Origin: a virus
Reading direction: 5' to 3' (one strand)
Length of the DNA stretch: 23,166 nt
Virus record (IMG/VR): IMGVR_UViG_3300027908_000001
Coordinates: 1-23,166 of that record
The notes beneath the pieces are model-generated. The model ran no database searches, was not told the DNA's origin, and saw only the letters and a program-made list of their open reading frames with translations. The position numbers were made by a program, and so were the translations under genes. The stretch's first letter is position 1. The number at the start of each line of letters is the position of its first letter. Of the stretch, positions 3,451 to 18,633 are shown piece by piece.

Positions 3451-3616
3451 AAGGTTTTACATTCGGCGGTTGAAAAAGCGGACACCAGTTGGCGCGATTC
3501 CCCCATATGATTTTTACAACCGCCATTCGACTGAATCCGGCTCGACGATAAAACTGAATCCAGAGGCGCATCAGGCCCGGCTGCCGGTAGGCGTTGATGC
3601 TCCACTGATAATTCAT
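3440..3616 (-). CDS. small unknown protein (58 residues) coupled to nadV-like gene
   Basis: ATG at 3616 overlaps the stop of the nicotinamide phosphoribosyltransferase-like gene as ATGA. The frame then runs 58 codons to TGA at 3440, overlapping the GTG start of the next gene. The product is basic and aromatic (MNYQWSINAYRQPG...), with WCP and a C-terminal CEY. No domain recognised. It fills an otherwise empty gap and follows the coupling pattern of the operon, so it is likely translated. Confidence 0.58.
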   Translation of the reverse strand: MNYQWSINAYRQPGLMRLWIQFYRRAGFSRMAVVKIIWGNRANWCPLFQPPNVKPCEY

Positions 3617-5067
3617 GCCGCCGCCAGCCGCGCCCGGATGTTGGCAAGCGTGTCGTCCACGATGAGGTTGCCGTCATCGAAGACCGTGCGCAGTTCGCCT
3701 TCCCGCTCCTGTTCGGGTGTGCATTTGTCGTACAACACGAACTTGCCGCCTTCCTTCCGAACGCAGAGCAGGCCGGTCGCCGACTTTTTCATGCCGTCAT
3801 CGGTAATCGGGTCTTTGAAGATGTCCATAGCTTGGCCGTTGATTTGCACCCATGTGGCTTTGATGGCCGTTCCGAACGTGTCGCGGGTGTTGAATTGGAA
3901 TGTGAAGCTGCCCACGCCTAGGACAACTTGCGAGGCGAATCCCTTGGCCTTGAGACGTTCGGAGATTTCCTTGGCGCGAGAGAGGTTGATGGAATCGCCA
4001 TAGATGGCACCGACGTGGCTATCCAGAACGCGGTATCCTTTGGCGTTGGTCGTGCCGCCGAATACATCCCAGAGACATTCGACGACGCCTTTGCGGTCGG
4101 CCTCGCTAATGCCGTGCGGGTTGCCGCAGATGATTTGCACTGGGTCCCCACTGTCAGGCCGAATTACGAGCTTGCCATCGCGAGCCATGATTTCCGATTT
4201 CAGGGATGGCAGTATCTTGGTCAATACCGAAAACAAATCCCACGTGTCACTGACCACCGAGAGAATGCCTTTCGGATGAACTTCCGTCAGCAATCGCTTG
4301 AATGTATCGAACTCGCCATCCTTCCGCCCACTGCACATTACGCTGTGCTCGGTTGCGGCCACGCTGCCGCCGACCAACTCCTTCTCGCAATCGGCGTTGT
4401 AGTATTGCTCCAGCCCGTCGATGGCCGGGATGGTATCGGTACCAGTGAAGCTAAGGAGGTGACCCATGCCGGACAATACCGCGCTCTCGAACGAACTCAT
4501 GCCGCGGAAGCTGAAATCATGCGCCTGCCATTGGACGAATTCTGGTGGCATGCCGGTTTCTTCGGCGTAGTGGTTCAGGAGCTTGCGGTACTCATGGGCC
4601 AGCGTTGCCGAGGTGCATGCTTGCCAGATGCTACAGGACATGAGCGTCTCGAAGAAGTTGGTGAGCCAGTAGAATTCATCGAAGGTATTGACGATAGTAA
4701 GGCAGGGCACGCGCATTGGCACAAGACTGCCCTCGGGCAACGCTTTGATGCGAATCGGCAGGTAGCCGAGGTCGTGCAGCGATGCCACATGCTCATAAGT
4801 CGGCAGCGGCCCGATGGAGTTCTTGATGCGCCGCTCATAAGCCTTCATCACTTTGTACTTGGATTGACAGAAGAAATTGCGCTGCATGTCTTCCATTAAA
4901 TAAGCCTTGATGAAATATTGCAGGCCGAAGAACACCATCTCCTCGATGCCTTGCAGCCGTGACTTTCTGGCGGTGTAATTGCTGTAAACCCTTTGGGTGC
5001 CCGGGGGATACTGGAACGGATGAGAAATTTTGTAAAAATCGGTCCTGAGAAATGGCATCATATCCAT
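3613..5067 (-). CDS. nadV: nicotinamide phosphoribosyltransferase-like protein (NadV/NAMPT family; possible Namat)
   Basis: The 484-residue product has the usual length and landmarks of NAMPT/NadV. These are HDFSFRGMSS (183-192, substrate-binding Arg), TGTDT (208-212), TEHSVM with catalytic-type His241, IRPDSGDP (302-309, phosphoribosyl site), and a C-terminal NGQAMDIFKDPITDD segment. Known enzymes join nicotinamide to PRPP to give NMN. In the phage NARP1 pathway a homologue (Namat) joins nicotinamide to ADP-ribose pyrophosphate and so makes NAD+ in one step. The start at 5067 overlaps the end of the PRPP-synthetase-like gene, so the two are translationally coupled. No NMN adenylyltransferase is seen in this window, which is why the Namat reading is attractive. 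Sequence reading alone cannot decide between them. Confidence 0.93.
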   Translation of the reverse strand: MDMMPFLRTDFYKISHPFQYPPGTQRVYSNYTARKSRLQGIEEMVFFGLQYFIKAYLMEDMQRNFFCQSKYKVMKAYERRIKNSIGPLPTYEHVASLHDLGYLPIRIKALPEGSLVPMRVPCLTIVNTFDEFYWLTNFFETLMSCSIWQACTSATLAHEYRKLLNHYAEETGMPPEFVQWQAHDFSFRGMSSFESAVLSGMGHLLSFTGTDTIPAIDGLEQYYNADCEKELVGGSVAATEHSVMCSGRKDGEFDTFKRLLTEVHPKGILSVVSDTWDLFSVLTKILPSLKSEIMARDGKLVIRPDSGDPVQIICGNPHGISEADRKGVVECLWDVFGGTTNAKGYRVLDSHVGAIYGDSINLSRAKEISERLKAKGFASQVVLGVGSFTFQFNTRDTFGTAIKATWVQINGQAMDIFKDPITDDGMKKSATGLLCVRKEGGKFVLYDKCTPEQEREGELRTVFDDGNLIVDDTLANIRARLAAA

Positions 5068-5867
5068 AGCGGGAATCTTCCTTCGAGGTTGATGGTGGTC
5101 ACGAAACCTTTGGCATCCGGGTGATTGGCGTAGCTGTCGGTCGTGATGATGTGCTGATAGTAGCGTCCGAGGTCATCGAAGCCTCGGGAGAAAATGCCGT
5201 GGCTGACGATGAGCGTCAGATGTTTCGGTTTGATTTGGTCGCCGATGGCCATGAACGTCGCGCCGCCGTCGCAGATGTCGTCGATGACCACGCAGTTGCG
5301 GCCGGTGCAAACATCCGGCTCGACCACCTTCAACTTGACGTGACCATCCGTGTCCCGTTTCTTGAAGCAGTACGTCACTTCCTTGATGCGCGGATTCCAT
5401 TCCAGATACTTGGTCACCTTCTTGACCGCCCCGGCGTCCGGGCATATCAGCACGGCGTTGTCTTTTTCGTAGGCTTGCACCAAGGCGATGTTGGAAACGT
5501 TTTGGGAACGGCTGATGAGTTGTAGCGCCACTTCGCTGTGGACATCGAACAATAACACCTTCTCGAATCCGCAGGAGTTTATGAGGTCGGCCACGACTTT
5601 CAGGTCGATGCTGTCACCCGCCTGCATGACGCGGTCGTAGCGCGCGCCCATGAGATAGGGGATAACGAGTTCTCGCTTGTACGCGAACACGTTGTCCAGC
5701 GCGTTGGAGACCTGCAACAGGTGCATCATCTCCAGACTGGACCGTATCGGGCAGATGACGCGCACGTCGTCGCCGTCGGAGATGCCGGAAATTCGGACGT
5801 GAGGTTGGTTATCGGGAAAGAGGATGAAGCTTACGCCGCGCTGCTTGCCGACATCGATGGTTCTCAT
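5058..5867 (-). CDS. prs: ribose-phosphate pyrophosphokinase-like protein (Prs family; possible Adps)
   Basis: The 269-residue protein is shorter than cellular PRPP synthetases (about 315). It keeps the family frame: IPYLMGARYDR (69-79), the FDVHS metal/ATP region (107-111), CPDAGAVKK (142-150) and the PRPP-site motif VVIDDICDGGATF (193-205). Cellular enzymes make PRPP from ribose 5-phosphate and ATP. Phage homologues in NARP1 (Adps) instead pyrophosphorylate ADP-ribose. In canonical Prs the segment after ARQDR reads REPISAK; here the region is MQAGDSIDLK, as in other phage members. It forms a coupled pair with the downstream nadV-like gene. A candidate promoter places transcription start almost at the ATG, and no Shine-Dalgarno is seen. 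Confidence 0.9.
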   Translation of the reverse strand: MRTIDVGKQRGVSFILFPDNQPHVRISGISDGDDVRVICPIRSSLEMMHLLQVSNALDNVFAYKRELVIPYLMGARYDRVMQAGDSIDLKVVADLINSCGFEKVLLFDVHSEVALQLISRSQNVSNIALVQAYEKDNAVLICPDAGAVKKVTKYLEWNPRIKEVTYCFKKRDTDGHVKLKVVEPDVCTGRNCVVIDDICDGGATFMAIGDQIKPKHLTLIVSHGIFSRGFDDLGRYYQHIITTDSYANHPDAKGFVTTINLEGRFPLWI

Positions 5868-5875
5868 GAGAGATA

Positions 5876-5904
5876 CCCATACGCGAAACGCGGTAGGCTG
5901 TCAA
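5876..5904 (-). promoter_or_regulatory. candidate promoter for the NAD gene pair
   Basis: A perfect -35 box TTGACA (5904-5899) is followed after 17 bases by TATGGG (5881-5876), a weak -10. The ATG of the Prs-like gene begins only eight bases later, so the transcript would be leaderless or nearly so. The same layout occurs at 23014-23042. Confidence 0.45.
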
Positions 5905-5911
5905 CAGGTTT

Positions 5912-6025
5912 TTACAGGGGCTCGCCGCACTCAAACGGATGGCGGCGGTAAATGCGCCCGTAGATGACACGGATGGCCGGGCAAACCAGCCAGACTATCA
6001 GGGCCATAAGGTAGGCCAAAGTCAA
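5912..6025 (-). CDS. tiny membrane peptide (37 residues)
   Basis: A TTG start at 6025 overlaps the stop of the phosphatase-like gene as TTGA. The 37-residue product (MTLAYLMALIVWLVCPAIRV...) is one hydrophobic helix at residues 3-20 followed by a basic tail with a Cys near the end (FECGEPL). That fits a single-pass inner-membrane peptide with its tail inside the cell. No Shine-Dalgarno is evident, so it would depend on re-initiation. TTG starts with TTGA overlaps recur in this window (7585). Function unknown, and the gene is tentative. Confidence 0.42.
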   Translation of the reverse strand: MTLAYLMALIVWLVCPAIRVIYGRIYRRHPFECGEPL

Positions 6026-6441
6026 ACTGGGTAGGCTTTTGGGGGAGAAGTATCGCATGACGGTTTCTGGAACAGACCGCTCTTTTCAATCATGTGCTTG
6101 AGCATTGCCTGTAGCTCGGGGTGGAAAGGATTCATGAATCGGTCCTCGCCGACGTTGAAGCAGTAGAGGCGTCGCTCCTCGGCCCCATCTTTATAACCGC
6201 GTGTGGAATTCGGTGTTAGCACCCATTTTGTGTGATACTTCTCCGGCACGAACTTCGCGAACTCCGGAGTCATGACGATAATGATGTCCGCCCATTCATA
6301 GAGCATCTCGCGTGTCTCTTGGGTGTTGGACTCCACCCCGCAGGCCAGTACATCGTGTTGGCCGTAGTTGCTGTAGTGGAGCAGGTACTTCAGGGCCACG
6401 CTGCGTACCTGACCGCCGCGGCAAATGGTGAGGATTTTCAC
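6022..6441 (-). CDS. low-molecular-weight protein tyrosine phosphatase-like protein
   Basis: I place the start at GTG 6441, overlapping the previous stop as GTGA. This gives MKILTICRGGQVRS, the usual N-terminus of the family; a GTG at 6450 is also possible. The Cys7-x5-Arg13-Ser14 P-loop is intact. A WADIIIVMTPE segment follows, as in small predicted tyrosine phosphatases, and the C-terminal DRFMNPFHPELQAML resembles their 'D-x-x-x-MDPEL' helix carrying the general acid region. At 139 residues it is of family length. It would remove phosphate from phosphotyrosine or a small molecule in the cytoplasm. It sits just upstream of the NAD pair, separated by the tiny membrane gene. The substrate is unknown. 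Confidence 0.75.
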   Translation of the reverse strand: MKILTICRGGQVRSVALKYLLHYSNYGQHDVLACGVESNTQETREMLYEWADIIIVMTPEFAKFVPEKYHTKWVLTPNSTRGYKDGAEERRLYCFNVGEDRFMNPFHPELQAMLKHMIEKSGLFQKPSCDTSPPKAYPV

Positions 6442-6722
6442 TTGAACCACCTGCGGAACCAGCTTGGCTTGAGCGGCGCGCTGATTCGGACCGGCTGCGC
6501 GAAGGTCAGGTAAACCTCAAACCAATTGCTGCCGAAATCGTAGTGATACCCTATCGGCATGCAGCGGATGTCCTCGCAGGCACCGCGTTCGATGCGCGGG
6601 AATATCGGGCAGAGCTTCATCACCGTAAAAACATCCATACGCTCGTCAGTGATGACCAAATAGGCCCGCTGATAGTCGGTGAGCTTGTTTGGGAAAATCT
6701 CGGTGCATTGAAGGATTTTCAT
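6438..6722 (-). CDS. unknown protein (94 residues)
   Basis: ATG at 6722 overlaps the stop of the metallophosphoesterase gene (TAATG), and its own stop overlaps the next GTG start. The product (MKILQCTEIFPNKL...) is mixed alpha/beta with three cysteines and a basic aromatic C-terminus (WFRRWFK). It contains LVITDERMDVFTVMKLCP. No family recognised. Position between two phosphatase-type genes suggests a shared pathway, but nothing in the sequence shows its role. Confidence 0.7.
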   Translation of the reverse strand: MKILQCTEIFPNKLTDYQRAYLVITDERMDVFTVMKLCPIFPRIERGACEDIRCMPIGYHYDFGSNWFEVYLTFAQPVRISAPLKPSWFRRWFK

Positions 6723-7585
6723 TAGCCGCCTATTTTGTAGTACCGGCCATTGGCCACGAATCCATGATGGTCATGCGGAATTACCAGCGTCGGATGAAAC
6801 CGTTTCTCATGGATGTAGCCGAACGTGAACGCTTGTTGCCAGCCCGGTGTCGGCGCGTACTCCAGCGAAGTCAGGCAGAGGCAACCGTTGTTCAGCCAAC
6901 AGTGACCGCCGCGGCTATCAGCCCAGCTATAAGTTTGCGCTCGATGGTCGTGACCGCACAGACCGGAGGACCCGCGTTCGATGGCCATGATGCGGGCGAC
7001 GTTGGCCGGGAACGCCGCTGACTTGGCGGCGCGGTACCCGTGTTCGATGATGAACCCGGCCATGTCGTAGCGGCTACCGTAAGGAATTGTGTGGATATTG
7101 AATTCAGCCAAACCGAGCAGCGACTCAATCTCCAAGCACTTCAAAGACGATAGTTTACTGCCGTCGGCCCAAAGGAAGCGCCGGAGCCGGTCCTCATGAT
7201 TACCCTGCACGAAGAACCGACGGGCTGTCGGGTTGGCTTTCACCCGTCGAGCGAACCACGCCTTGCCAGCGCTTAGTTCGTCCTGCAGGTTGAACACCCG
7301 GGACGGATTCTGGTCGAAATGGCTGCACGAGTAGAAGTCGATGATGTCGCCGTTATAGACCTCGATGGTCGGTTTGAAGTCAGCGAAGAAGGTTTCCACG
7401 GCATCCAGCACCGGGAAATCTGCGAACGGGATATGCACGTCATTGACAATCACCACTCGGTCGCCTTCCTTGAGCCCGGCGATTTTGTGGGTGGTGTAAT
7501 CCTGCGGCTTGATGAACAGACTGGCGGCCTTCAGGAGCGATGAACTCATGGAATCTTCCACGACTGCGGAGGCATTCACTTTCAA
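6722..7585 (-). CDS. calcineurin-like metallophosphoesterase
   Basis: All the dinuclear metal-site motifs of this superfamily are present in order: DVH (49-51), NGD (78-80), GNHED (128-132), EHG (181-183) and GHDH (211-214). At 287 residues it resembles phage and bacterial single-domain phosphoesterases or Mre11-type nucleases without the capping domains. The reaction would be hydrolysis of a phosphomonoester, phosphodiester or nucleotide, with Mn or similar metals. I use a TTG start at 7585: it overlaps the previous stop (TTGA) and has GAGAG seven bases upstream. GTG at 7579 is the alternative. Neighbouring phosphatase and NAD genes make a nucleotide substrate plausible, but this is inference. 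Confidence 0.87.
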   Translation of the reverse strand: MKVNASAVVEDSMSSSLLKAASLFIKPQDYTTHKIAGLKEGDRVVIVNDVHIPFADFPVLDAVETFFADFKPTIEVYNGDIIDFYSCSHFDQNPSRVFNLQDELSAGKAWFARRVKANPTARRFFVQGNHEDRLRRFLWADGSKLSSLKCLEIESLLGLAEFNIHTIPYGSRYDMAGFIIEHGYRAAKSAAFPANVARIMAIERGSSGLCGHDHRAQTYSWADSRGGHCWLNNGCLCLTSLEYAPTPGWQQAFTFGYIHEKRFHPTLVIPHDHHGFVANGRYYKIGG

Positions 7586-8329: not shown

Positions 8330-8560
8330 GGTCGGTAGGTCTTGCTTACGCTTATGCGCGACCGCGGATGTCGTTATCAATGTGACCCTGCGCCTGATTT
8401 TCATCAAGCGGCTTCTCGTTGCTGACGGCCTCGAACGCCGCCACTGGGCGAGCTACTTGCCCGGTGTCCTCGGGAACTACCCGGGTTGCCCCGGGATACT
8501 TGTGTGTGGGATGGACCCACTGAATATCGTTTGGCACGACACGGCCTGCGGGCATCGCGT
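8330..8560 (-). ncRNA. candidate omega RNA (TnpB guide RNA scaffold)
   Basis: In TnpB elements the guide RNA scaffold usually covers the 3' end of tnpB and the element's right end. The 3' part of this tnpB is GC-rich with strong hairpins on the minus strand, including CCCGGGGCAACCCGGG at about 8483-8500. The encoded tail beyond the RuvC-III motif is not conserved-looking protein. The exact 3' end, where the guide would begin, cannot be fixed by eye. Confidence 0.3.
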
Positions 8561-9626
8561 TGAGCGTTCCGAGCGACAGCATGTTGACGGCTCCGATAAC
8601 GTCGCGCGGAGCTATCGTGCCGCACTTACTGCATGTGAACACTCGACCATTCTGCCTGCATCGTTCTCCACAAACGGGACACGTTTGCGAACTGAACGCT
8701 TCGCTGCGGACCAAGGTGCCCGCAGTTTTGTACTGAAGTTGTTTGGTGATGCGACCGCAGCAGGCCGAACTGACTTGCTGGGCGTTGACACGGCCCATCT
8801 TAACAGCGGCTCCGTTGAATGGCTGGCCGATATGACAGATTGCGCCGGGAAAGGTATCAGCAACGAGACGCGTGGCTTTGTGGGTGATATCCTTGATGCG
8901 TGAGTTGGATTTATCCAATAACCGGTGTTTGCGGCGTTCAATACGGAGCCACCGGCGCGAGCGCTTCTTGGTCTTTGATTGCCGCGAACGTAGCGATGAC
9001 AATCGCTTATTACGCCATTGAATCGTGGCCTTGGCTTCATGGCCGGAAATCATTAGAACTTTCTTGCCATCTGTTGCGGCGACAAGCGTGTTCACTCCAA
9101 GGTCGATGCCGATGTCCATCTTAGGCGCTGGTTGGGCGATGTCGCATTGGCAAACTAGAATCACCTTGCCGTATAAGAGCGTAACTTCCACAAGTCTACC
9201 GGGTAACACAATACCACGCGGCATATTGATGCGCAACTTTCCTGCCGAACCACAGGGCAGCAACAAACGACCATTGCAAATACGCGCTGACTGATTAGTG
9301 AACGGAACATCCCGATAGTGTAAAATACGGTTTGGGTAGTTAGCGTGTAGGCCTTTCTTACGCGCAGCCGATGTTCCCTTAATCGAATCGCAAAAATCCT
9401 TTACGATTTGCTGAACAGATTGTGCCCTTAGATGTGGATATTTCTTTTTCGACCAATGCATAAGACGGTTTTCGGTGGGCCACTTCCACATCGCACGCCT
9501 CAGGCGTGCATGGCGCTTGACCATGTCATTCCATAATCTCGCCGCCTCAGTTCGAGCCGATGTGAACGTTGCCCATTGCGTGGCGGTGTGAGGCAACCAG
9601 CCAATTTCAACTGAGCGGTATTGCAT
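8352..9626 (-). CDS. tnpB: IS605 OrfB / TnpB RNA-guided nuclease-family protein
   Basis: The 424-residue protein has the TnpB layout. An N-terminal helical/wedge region is followed by RuvC-I DIGIDLGVNTL (171-181, Asp175), a basic bridge region (about 205-245), a zinc finger (CPVCG at 316-320 and CSKCG at 332-336) and RuvC-III RDVIGAVNM (341-349, Asp342). TnpB proteins use an omega RNA to cut DNA beside a short target motif and so maintain their element. The RuvC-II segment reads AICHIGQPFNG (262-272), where a Glu is normally expected, so the catalytic triad is not clearly complete. Some TnpB subgroups shift this Glu. Length is normal and there is no frameshift. It starts 12 bases after the preceding gene stop, with a weak ribosome binding site. 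Confidence 0.9.
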   Translation of the reverse strand: MQYRSVEIGWLPHTATQWATFTSARTEAARLWNDMVKRHARLRRAMWKWPTENRLMHWSKKKYPHLRAQSVQQIVKDFCDSIKGTSAARKKGLHANYPNRILHYRDVPFTNQSARICNGRLLLPCGSAGKLRINMPRGIVLPGRLVEVTLLYGKVILVCQCDIAQPAPKMDIGIDLGVNTLVAATDGKKVLMISGHEAKATIQWRNKRLSSLRSRQSKTKKRSRRWLRIERRKHRLLDKSNSRIKDITHKATRLVADTFPGAICHIGQPFNGAAVKMGRVNAQQVSSACCGRITKQLQYKTAGTLVRSEAFSSQTCPVCGERCRQNGRVFTCSKCGTIAPRDVIGAVNMLSLGTLNAMPAGRVVPNDIQWVHPTHKYPGATRVVPEDTGQVARPVAAFEAVSNEKPLDENQAQGHIDNDIRGRA

Positions 9627-16386: not shown

Positions 16387-18633
16387 TCATGCCCCTACGA
16401 ACTCCGCAATCGTTTCGGAATCCTTGCCGCAACCGCACGTCGAACAGCCGCACTTCGATTTGCTCACGTCCGCCTGTGGGATACCCCATGCCGTCGCGAA
16501 ATTATTGGCCGCTTTTAAGAGTGGGATTATATCCATATCTACCTTGCGCACTTTCATCGTGAGTGGTTTATCTAACCCTTCGCGATACGACGCACCGACC
16601 GCGGCTGCCCATCTGTGGTGCCCGTCCAAGATATAATTTCCCGGACCTGCTGTAAAAATTGGCTCGCCTAGAATCGCAGGATTTTTACCAGACTCAATCG
16701 CCGCAACCATGCCTGCGACCTTGCCGCCGTTTAATTCTGAATTTCCCTGAATCGCAACTATCCCATTGCGGCGTGTAATTAACGTCCCACGAGGAAGAGT
16801 GAAACAATAGACTTCACCATCATATTCTTCCTTTATTGGCTTAGGCAAGCATGCAAGCGCGGCATTACCCGTTCCTCTAGCGCCAGAAGCGCCCTTACGC
16901 AATCGCACAAACCATTCCGTTCTTTCGCCTCTTTTGGTCATGTAGGTTTCTTGTTCCTGTTTTTGTGCGAAAAACCCACAATGCATAGCGAGACGTTGAG
17001 CGTCGTCCGCAAGCTGTTCGCTTGTAATTCCAAGCCGCGATGCCCCCAATGATTCCCATTTGTCTTTCCCGCCAGTCCAGCCGTCTCCCCTCATAAGGCC
17101 GCGCAATAAAATCCATTGCTGCTCTTTTGGAAGACTAAAAACAAATTCTGGTATTCTCTTGTTGTACGCATGGGTGCCAACGTGTTCTTCCAGCCATGCC
17201 ACATATTGACCGGGTTCCTTTGGGCACCAGAACCATTGCCCATCAGCCGATACGCATTCACGTCCTTTAACGCCTAGAGATTTACAGACTCTTTTTATCT
17301 CATCAATCCATGGAGATTTAATTGACTGTGAAACCATGCCAGCGTGCCCCTCGGCAATATACCAGCCAAGCCATGCCAGCCATGCATCCATAGGAAGAGA
17401 TATTTTTGGTCTCATCTTGGCGCTGCGAATCCTACGTGCAGAATATTCTGCATTCGGGTCTTCGATAACTCTTTGAACTGTTCTACGAATCTTTCCGACC
17501 TCATCCGCCACCCTCTGATAATATCCCTGCTTGCCTCTATGTCCCGGTGCATGGAATCCTTTTTCGCCCACTGCCGATTTACCACAGCCGCATGCACATA
17601 ATCCCGTCGCAAAAGAGAACGCTGCAATCTTCGCTGCTATATCTCGAATTCTATCGTTCCTTTCCTTGTGATATTCTCCGATTCGCAAGCCAACCCTTCG
17701 GCCAGACAATGGATATTCTGGAATGACGAATTCATCTACTTTGACGCCCCCACACATTCCGCCGGGGGCAGAGACCTGCGCGTACATTCGAGAGACATAA
17801 CTAAGGCTAGATGCCTCGCAGAATTTGGGAATCATATCGGATTGTTTGCGAATAAAAAGCCTATGATTCGGCGTGACGGCCAAGTCGAAGACCTGTCCAA
17901 TGAATCTATAAATAGGCCCACTATGACGCATTAACGTCATGCCCGCTAATGGTTGTTCATAATGAATCTGCTGTGACTCAGTATTAAACGATGCTATTTT
18001 GGGCATGGTTCCGTTGGCAGTATGAACTTTTAATTCATCCAGCCCCATCCATCCGTATTCTGTCAATGTCTCCGTAAGCGCATCGTGGCACTGAGTTGCC
18101 TTCAGATAATCGGCGCGCTCCACTTCGTCCGTAACGCTAATGCCTGCGGCGTGAAGGTGCTCCACGAATGGACCAGCCAAATCCACCTCTCCATTTTTAT
18201 CCTTCAGCAATGCATCAGCCTTCGAGCCCGGCGTCGGCACGCCTTTGAGTTGCGGCATCTGGACGCGGGGAACATTTTTTGACTCGACACAAAAAAGTGA
18301 GGTGCCGGGAATGGTTACCTTGCACAAATCGTATACACCGGCTTTTTCCCCTTTGGCCTTGGCTTCATCCACAATGTCTTTGAGTTTACCAAGAAGCGTG
18401 GAAACCTGTCGAACGCTTTTTAGCTGGACATATTTGTTCTCACCCAGCGCCTTGGCCGCGACCAACACGTCGCTGGTGACTATCGGGTCGGACTTGGTGC
18501 CGGTGCCCGTCGATTCGCCGTCTGCGCCCGAAGTGAATTCTCCGCCACCGGTCTGTCCAGCCGGTACCCGTGGATGCTGCTCCTCGGTGAACGCCTTGGC
18601 GAGGTGATGGATGATTTGGACAGCAGGTCGCAT
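16387..18633 (-). CDS. ParB-like domain protein interrupted by an intein (748 residues)
   Basis: The host protein starts with HPRVPAGQTGGGEFTSG (20-36) and has a helical region to about 165. It then carries a ParB-type nuclease-like domain whose halves are separated by the intein. When spliced they read ADYLKATQ-SELNGGKVAGM, then PIFTAGPGNYILDGHHRWAA. DGHHRWAA is the family's signature, and such domains bind or cut DNA or hydrolyse nucleotides. The tail is cysteine-rich (KCGCSTCGCG, 727-736), probably metal-binding. The mature protein would be about 298 residues after removal of residues 182-631. It lies among suspected virion genes, two bases after the small beta-rich gene. The start near 18633 overlaps no gene and has a weak ribosome binding site. 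Confidence 0.88.
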   Translation of the reverse strand: MRPAVQIIHHLAKAFTEEQHPRVPAGQTGGGEFTSGADGESTGTGTKSDPIVTSDVLVAAKALGENKYVQLKSVRQVSTLLGKLKDIVDEAKAKGEKAGVYDLCKVTIPGTSLFCVESKNVPRVQMPQLKGVPTPGSKADALLKDKNGEVDLAGPFVEHLHAAGISVTDEVERADYLKATQCHDALTETLTEYGWMGLDELKVHTANGTMPKIASFNTESQQIHYEQPLAGMTLMRHSGPIYRFIGQVFDLAVTPNHRLFIRKQSDMIPKFCEASSLSYVSRMYAQVSAPGGMCGGVKVDEFVIPEYPLSGRRVGLRIGEYHKERNDRIRDIAAKIAAFSFATGLCACGCGKSAVGEKGFHAPGHRGKQGYYQRVADEVGKIRRTVQRVIEDPNAEYSARRIRSAKMRPKISLPMDAWLAWLGWYIAEGHAGMVSQSIKSPWIDEIKRVCKSLGVKGRECVSADGQWFWCPKEPGQYVAWLEEHVGTHAYNKRIPEFVFSLPKEQQWILLRGLMRGDGWTGGKDKWESLGASRLGITSEQLADDAQRLAMHCGFFAQKQEQETYMTKRGERTEWFVRLRKGASGARGTGNAALACLPKPIKEEYDGEVYCFTLPRGTLITRRNGIVAIQGNSELNGGKVAGMVAAIESGKNPAILGEPIFTAGPGNYILDGHHRWAAAVGASYREGLDKPLTMKVRKVDMDIIPLLKAANNFATAWGIPQADVSKSKCGCSTCGCGKDSETIAEFVGA
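16741..18090 (-). mobile_element. intein with LAGLIDADG homing endonuclease (450 residues)
   Basis: The segment runs from Cys182 to Asn631 of the 748-residue precursor, and Ser632 is the first residue of the C-extein. The N-terminal splicing block begins CHDALTETLTEYGW. Block B is FDLAVTPNHRLF with the TxxH motif. Two LAGLIDADG helices are visible, LGWYIAEGHA (422-431) and LLRGLMRGDG (509-518), so the homing endonuclease looks intact. The C-terminal block ends VYCFTLPRGTLITRRNG...AIQGN, with Gly rather than the common His before the final Asn. A CxCxxC-type cluster (CACGC, 346-350) may bind zinc. Base composition is AT-richer than the flanking extein, a sign of separate origin. Confidence 0.93.

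Follow-up and report, generated by a model that had tools for sequence, protein, structure and literature searches.

The virus record studied here is 197,395 bp long, and the DNA considered (the window) is its opening 23,166 bp. An exact 99-nt repeat is common to both ends of the record, which therefore looks complete, with a circular map. It codes for portal, large terminase, DnaB helicase and polymerase-clamp-type proteins, marking it as a tailed phage, and the source is thus a large uncultivated tailed bacterial virus. For features beyond the window, the whole record was read as overlapping 20-kb stretches. Within the window, a gene for a Prs-like protein (adps) adjoins one for a NadV-like protein (namat) on the same strand (Table 1). 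The ten-base overlap between the two genes that had been reported in an earlier note is confirmed by the ORF coordinates, and the two are likely to be translationally coupled through it. A search of PADLOC-DB (2023) with the pair gave no useful match, and comparison of the other window genes with a first set of relatives gave no synteny match.

Table 1. Features of the adps–namat locus, in window coordinates
Feature	Position	Strand	Basis
adps, Prs-like ADP-ribose pyrophosphate synthetase homologue, 269 aa, ATG start, first of the pair	5058..5867	-	ORF, Pribosyltran_N, PHROG 619, tree, AF2 model
namat, nicotinamide ADP-ribose transferase homologue, 484 aa, ATG start	3613..5067	-	ORF, NAPRTase + NAMPT_N, clamp, tree, model
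10-nt adps/namat frame overlap	5058..5067	-	ORF coordinates
Promoter-like TTGACA-N17-TATGGG (-35 at 5904-5899, -10 at 5881-5876)	5876..5904	-	Comparison of promoter-like sites across the genome
CGCGTTTCGCG, putative operator between -35 and -10	5882..5892	-	One mismatch from genome-wide palindrome CKCGAWTCGMG
Adps catalytic K169-x-R171	5355..5363	-	Invariant in Adps alignment; aligns with E. coli Prs K-R-R
Adps phosphate loop DDICDGGATF (residues 196-205), replacing cellular DDxxDTGGT	5253..5282	-	Alignment with Adps homologues and E. coli Prs
Namat selectivity-clamp helix motif GSFTFQFNTRD (residues 386-396)	3880..3912	-	Fits published Namat consensus
Namat Arg37, selectivity-clamp loop, equivalent to SPbetaL1 Namat Arg40	4957..4959	-	Alignment

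The pair had also been credited with a promoter-like element of its own. A strict sigma-70 consensus scan upstream of adps called no promoter, and the element was recovered solely by genome-wide comparison of promoter-like sites. Read on the minus strand from 5904 to 5876, the sequence 5' of adps is TTGACA-GCCTAC-CGCGTTTCGCG-TATGGG, with the -10 box lying 8 nt upstream of the ATG. The palindrome that CGCGTTTCGCG resembles is found at 17 sites in the genome, in a strict count that excludes the adps site, against about 0.8 expected. Approximately 21 promoter-like sites, that of adps included, carry the palindrome or a close variant between the -35 and -10 boxes or overlapping the -35, against 0.05 expected from 20 shuffles, the site patterns having been set after the matches were seen and the centre of the palindrome relaxed to take in the adps site. 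Examples lie at 5904-5876 (-), 77043 (-), 154448 (+), 176519 (-) and 144960 (+) of the record, and such sites often have a short A-rich run ahead of TTGAC, with a start codon nearby. The likeliest interpretation is that the palindromes form a family of operators for a phage regulator, and adps–namat seems to form a separate transcription unit under this repeated, palindrome-bearing type of phage promoter.

Several other window genes can be described briefly. A 142-aa protein (6022-6450, minus strand) with no Pfam or PHROG match has a C-x5-R(S) motif reminiscent of low-molecular-weight phosphatases, and a metallophosphoesterase gene (6722-7585) lies close to it. Also on the minus strand are genes for a TnpB/OrfB-type protein (8352-9626; OrfB_IS605, Cas12f1-like TNB domain) and for a large protein interrupted by a LAGLIDADG insert that resembles an intein (16387-18633).

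The NadV-like protein matches the Pfam families NAPRTase (7.6e-41) and NAMPT_N (8.8e-13), and an NCBIfam equivalog model labels it a nicotinate phosphoribosyltransferase. The structure of Namat from phage SPbetaL1, published in 2026, revealed a clamp found only in Namat proteins that consists of a helix motif (GSX-Phi1-X-Phi2-X-Phi3-TRD) and a stacking residue in the beta1-beta2 loop, either an arginine or the residue following a Lys/Tyr; this clamp is required for use of ADP-ribose pyrophosphate (ADPR-PP) but is dispensable for PRPP (PMC12774641). Both elements are present in the window protein: F388, F392, T394, R395 and D396 align with F392, Y396, T398, R399 and D400 of SPbetaL1 Namat, with Phe388 and Phe392 at the adenine-stacking positions. 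Among the SPbetaL1 Namat residues listed as making contact with nicotinamide or NAD+, the sole exception to conservation is Ala362, which is replaced by serine, a change common to most Namat rows of the alignment. Nampt proteins from KVP40, D490, Ccr29, Cupriavidus, Novosphingobium and Rhodococcus have GGGLLQ or a similar sequence at the clamp and lack both clamp aromatics; the window protein has no such motif and lies outside the Nampt clade.

Structural comparison points the same way. Crystallised SPbetaL1 Namat, which shares the clamp and 54% sequence identity with the window protein, provides the best PDB sequence matches (9W5X and 9W5W at 2e-170, against about 1e-72 for human Nampt), and 9W5X is also the best PDB fold match to the predicted structure (TM 0.95, rmsd 1.6), with the clamp segment modelled by AF2 at low confidence (pLDDT under 50 for residues 392-396). 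A tree of 45 rows separates, at 100/100, a Namat clade of 37, which includes the window protein, from a Nampt clade of eight; KVP40, Ccr29 and cellular Nampt fall outside the Namat clade.

Placement in the Namat clade does not by itself fix the donor, however, since the NMN-type enzyme HdNadV of Haemophilus ducreyi (PDB 9KE8/9KEO, the former deposited with NMN) is nested inside it. HdNadV resembles the window Namat in its clade membership, with 48% identity between the two, but differs from it in having lost the clamp: its motif reads GAQTYQRNTRD, the clamp-loop arginine is replaced by glutamate and the clamp aromatics are gone. It also differs in its surroundings, as its home plasmid, pNAD1, has no Adps. 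HdNadV (L045:3828-5315) may be a Namat that has reverted to PRPP use. Clade membership is thus necessary but not sufficient, with the clamp and an Adps partner deciding the matter, and the window pair has both. Tree clustering had been put forward in the earlier note as a way to refute the NARP1 assignment; the window pair does fall with Namat and Adps, but HdNadV makes the clade criterion too weak when used alone.

The Prs-like protein matches Pribosyltran_N in Pfam (2.1e-9) and PHROG 619, annotated 'ribose-phosphate pyrophosphokinase' (1.4e-60), but is below every NCBIfam ribose-phosphate diphosphokinase cut-off (103.6 bits at best versus 113). Percentage identity was dropped as a means of separating Adps from Prs, as the protein is no closer to SPbetaL1 Adps, an assayed enzyme (23% identity), than to E. 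coli Prs (24%). The phosphate loop of Prs holds the 5'-phosphate of ribose-5-phosphate. ADP-ribose bears AMP on this phosphate, so that an altered loop, of the DDICDGGATF type found by alignment in most phage Adps, would fit this substrate. The window protein and phage Adps have in common the blocks PHS(D/E)V-like, PDxGAxKK, KxRDxxxG, DDICDGGxTF and HGIFS(K/R)G; the corresponding E. coli Prs sequences are DLHAEQ, PDIGGVVR, KRRPR, DDMIDTGGTL and THPIFSGN. Two arguments made from the sequence earlier need qualification here: the active-site loop is indeed altered, in its phosphate-binding part, but the catalytic K169 and R171 are retained; and the protein is indeed shorter than cellular enzymes of about 315 residues, but 253-300 residues is usual for Adps and length alone is not diagnostic.

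In a tree of 35 phage and bacterial Adps rows and seven cellular Prs rows (E. coli, Acetoanaerobium and aligned parts of PDB chains, several of these outgroup rows being partial), the two groups are parted by a 100/100 branch with the window protein among the Adps, the branching order of distant Adps being unsettled. The closest relatives are viral (61% identity) and bacterial (56-61%), the latter from Bacteroidota loci, mostly Chitinophagaceae. The AF2 model (pLDDT 88.7) has the Prs fold, with E. coli Prs as its best PDB match (TM 0.81) and no Adps structure among the PDB matches. ADP-ribose is the probable substrate, judging from the clade, motifs and partner of the protein.

The arrangement of the two genes is the one seen in NARP1, with adps and namat adjoining on one strand. 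Eighty viral Adps loci were fetched; a Namat homologue lies no more than 4 kb away in 77 of them, on the same strand in all 77, adps comes first in 72 and the clamp motif in its strict pattern is present in 55. At bacterial Adps loci a Namat homologue was found nearby, always on the same strand, in 50 of 80, a figure limited by flank length. An Adps neighbour alone is not proof of NARP1, as Nampt-like enzymes without the Namat clamp adjoin some Bacteroidota Adps. In loci L153, L154, L157, L164, L167, L174 and L210, and in viral loci L104 and L105, the enzyme beside Adps has GVGGILRNHSRD or GGLLVQNHSRD in place of the clamp. One further locus (L027, identical to L075) encodes an Adps of the window subgroup (51%) with no Namat homologue in its flanks, adjoining DnaB-like and DnaG-like genes.

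A number of these loci carry additional genes. Adps and namat are separated by a macro-domain gene in two independent cases, the closest viral relative and Vibrio phage Pylo (L021:5792-6256, L051:4454-4924), and 10 of the 80 viral Adps loci have such a gene nearby. NADAR-domain genes adjoin Adps–Namat loci L039 (4537-5001) and L040 (2555-3082) and many Bacteroidota loci among L145-L224, being present at about 30 of 80 bacterial Adps loci. In two other viral loci (L093:6587-7624, L144:6198-6467), a RyR-domain gene lies shortly 3' of namat. No macro or NADAR domain was found in the phage described here.

We consider it very probable that adps–namat is a phage NARP1 operon that rebuilds NAD+. Adps would move pyrophosphate from ATP onto ADP-ribose to yield ADPR-PP, and Namat would then use nicotinamide to displace the pyrophosphate, giving NAD+ directly. 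Bacterial defences that cleave NAD+ through TIR, SIR2 or SEFIR effectors release both ADP-ribose and nicotinamide, the two inputs of the pair, suggesting that the phage would rebuild the cofactor during infection. We infer the reactions of the window pair and its anti-defence role from homologues characterised elsewhere, and its expression and timing are presumed. NARP1 pairs from SPbetaL1 and Paenibacillus are active both in vitro and in E. coli, Adps and Namat from mycobacteriophage DyoEdafos are active in vitro (PMC13232231) and the NrsAB proteins of Vibrio phage ICP1 raise NAD+ during infection of a Nezha strain.

Comparison with these named systems brings out what is shared. SPbetaL1 NARP1 (Adps WIT26982.1, Namat WIT26983.1) has the same adps–namat order, but its Adps is divergent, with the loop DDLSSFGGTF. 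ICP1 NrsAB likewise has the same gene order and a clamp-type motif (GSYTYQYVTRD), differing from the window pair in sequence (52% identity for Namat and 28% for Adps) and in its loop, DDICDGAASF. DyoEdafos, like the window phage, encodes Adps, Namat and a RyR-domain protein (PMC13232231); this phage is not in the tree, where the actinobacterial phages Calm and Syleon are among the neighbours of the window Namat. Vibrio phage KVP40 NadV and Caulobacter phage Ccr29 Nampt have the Nampt-family core residues that are also found in the window Namat, but they lack the clamp motif, are only about 30% identical to it and fall in a separate clade.

The RyR-domain protein of the window phage lies outside the window, about 59 kb from the NARP1 pair (record positions 64558-64896, equivalent to L005:7558-7896, minus strand, 112 aa), whereas in DyoEdafos the gene is within the NARP1 operon (PMC13232231). 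It scores 44.9 bits against PF02026, for which the gathering cut-off is 27.4. Its residues H59, W62, H84 and D101 have the spacing of H75, W78, H100 and D117 of RyDEP, an enzyme that converts cyclic-ADPR signals to ADP-ribose, from which NARP1 then makes NAD+ in vitro (PMC13232231). Counterparts of all four published ligand or catalytic residues are thus present, as assigned by spacing and family motif rather than by alignment to the RyDEP sequence, and together with the domain score they place the protein in the RyDEP family. Eight RyDEP homologues have been tested; none cleaved and six of the eight bound 2'/3'cADPR signals, so the phage protein may instead be a signal sponge. A two-locus recycling scheme can be envisaged in which the RyR-domain protein opens or captures the cyclic-ADPR of Thoeris, the NARP1 pair makes NAD+ from the ADP-ribose released and the NARP1 operon is governed by a phage-wide set of palindromic operators, but we regard this scheme as tentative and on balance doubtful.

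The same protein bears on a different view of what the pair is for. NARP1 chemistry might have been kept mainly to offset NAD+ lost to ADP-ribosylation or general metabolism, and not to counter a dedicated NAD+-depleting defence. Active NARP1 is present on bacterial chromosomes, the closest cellular Adps relatives are those of Bacteroidota and NADAR-domain genes lie near many Bacteroidota Adps loci, all of which would suit such a role. According to cited work, however, growth or NAD+ is restored by phage NARP1 in the face of several NAD+-depleting defences, and here the same phage encodes a protein of a family that removes Thoeris signals, making a mainly metabolic role unlikely in our view.

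Classical salvage, in which the Prs-like protein makes PRPP, the NadV-like protein makes NMN and a host adenylyltransferase completes NAD+, is a further alternative. Namat-type enzymes do retain the Nampt catalytic core and form NMN from PRPP in vitro, so that host-assisted NMN production is conceivable, the NCBIfam model name is that of a phosphoribosyltransferase and the NMN-type HdNadV belongs to the same clade. Against this, the clamp residues important for ADPR-PP, but not PRPP, are intact in the window Namat, and the Prs-like protein scores below the diphosphokinase cut-offs and has the Adps phosphate loop. An NMN adenylyltransferase had previously been noted as absent from the window, with the suggestion that a nadR- or nadM-type gene be sought elsewhere in the phage; the absence extends to the whole record, with no match to PF01467 (CTP_transf_like, the NMN adenylyltransferase type) or to PF00293 (NUDIX), often its companion in classical phage NadV/NatV salvage, at E<=1 across its 197,395 bp, in a domain search for which 14 of 14 control genomes were positive. 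Without such a gene the classical NMN route would need a host enzyme, whereas NARP1 needs none, and in Ccr29, unlike the window phage, a gene for a NadM-type NMN adenylyltransferase adjoins that for Nampt. Classical salvage is therefore very unlikely. That the cassette is a functionless, degenerate relic is the least credible reading of all, both frames being full length and overlapping, with all catalytic residues, and preceded by a promoter of the kind that recurs in this phage.

Taken together, these results uphold the earlier assignment of the two proteins to the NARP1 families, through their Pfam matches, the Namat clamp and the grouping of the pair with Namat and Adps in trees split at 100/100 in each case. 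The preference for NARP1 over ordinary salvage is likewise supported, by the clamp, the clades, the structural match, the gene architecture and the lack of adenylyltransferase and NUDIX domains. The pair is a clear addition to the recently described NARP1 family and not another type of system, and places a well-supported example in a large uncultivated phage. For the family as a whole, the Namat clamp offers a means of recognising NARP1 behind the plain annotation 'nicotinate phosphoribosyltransferase', and membership of the NadV clade by itself is insufficient for assigning function. The macro, NADAR and RyR domains encoded beside Adps–Namat suggest that several ADP-ribose-releasing or -binding proteins have become attached to NARP1.
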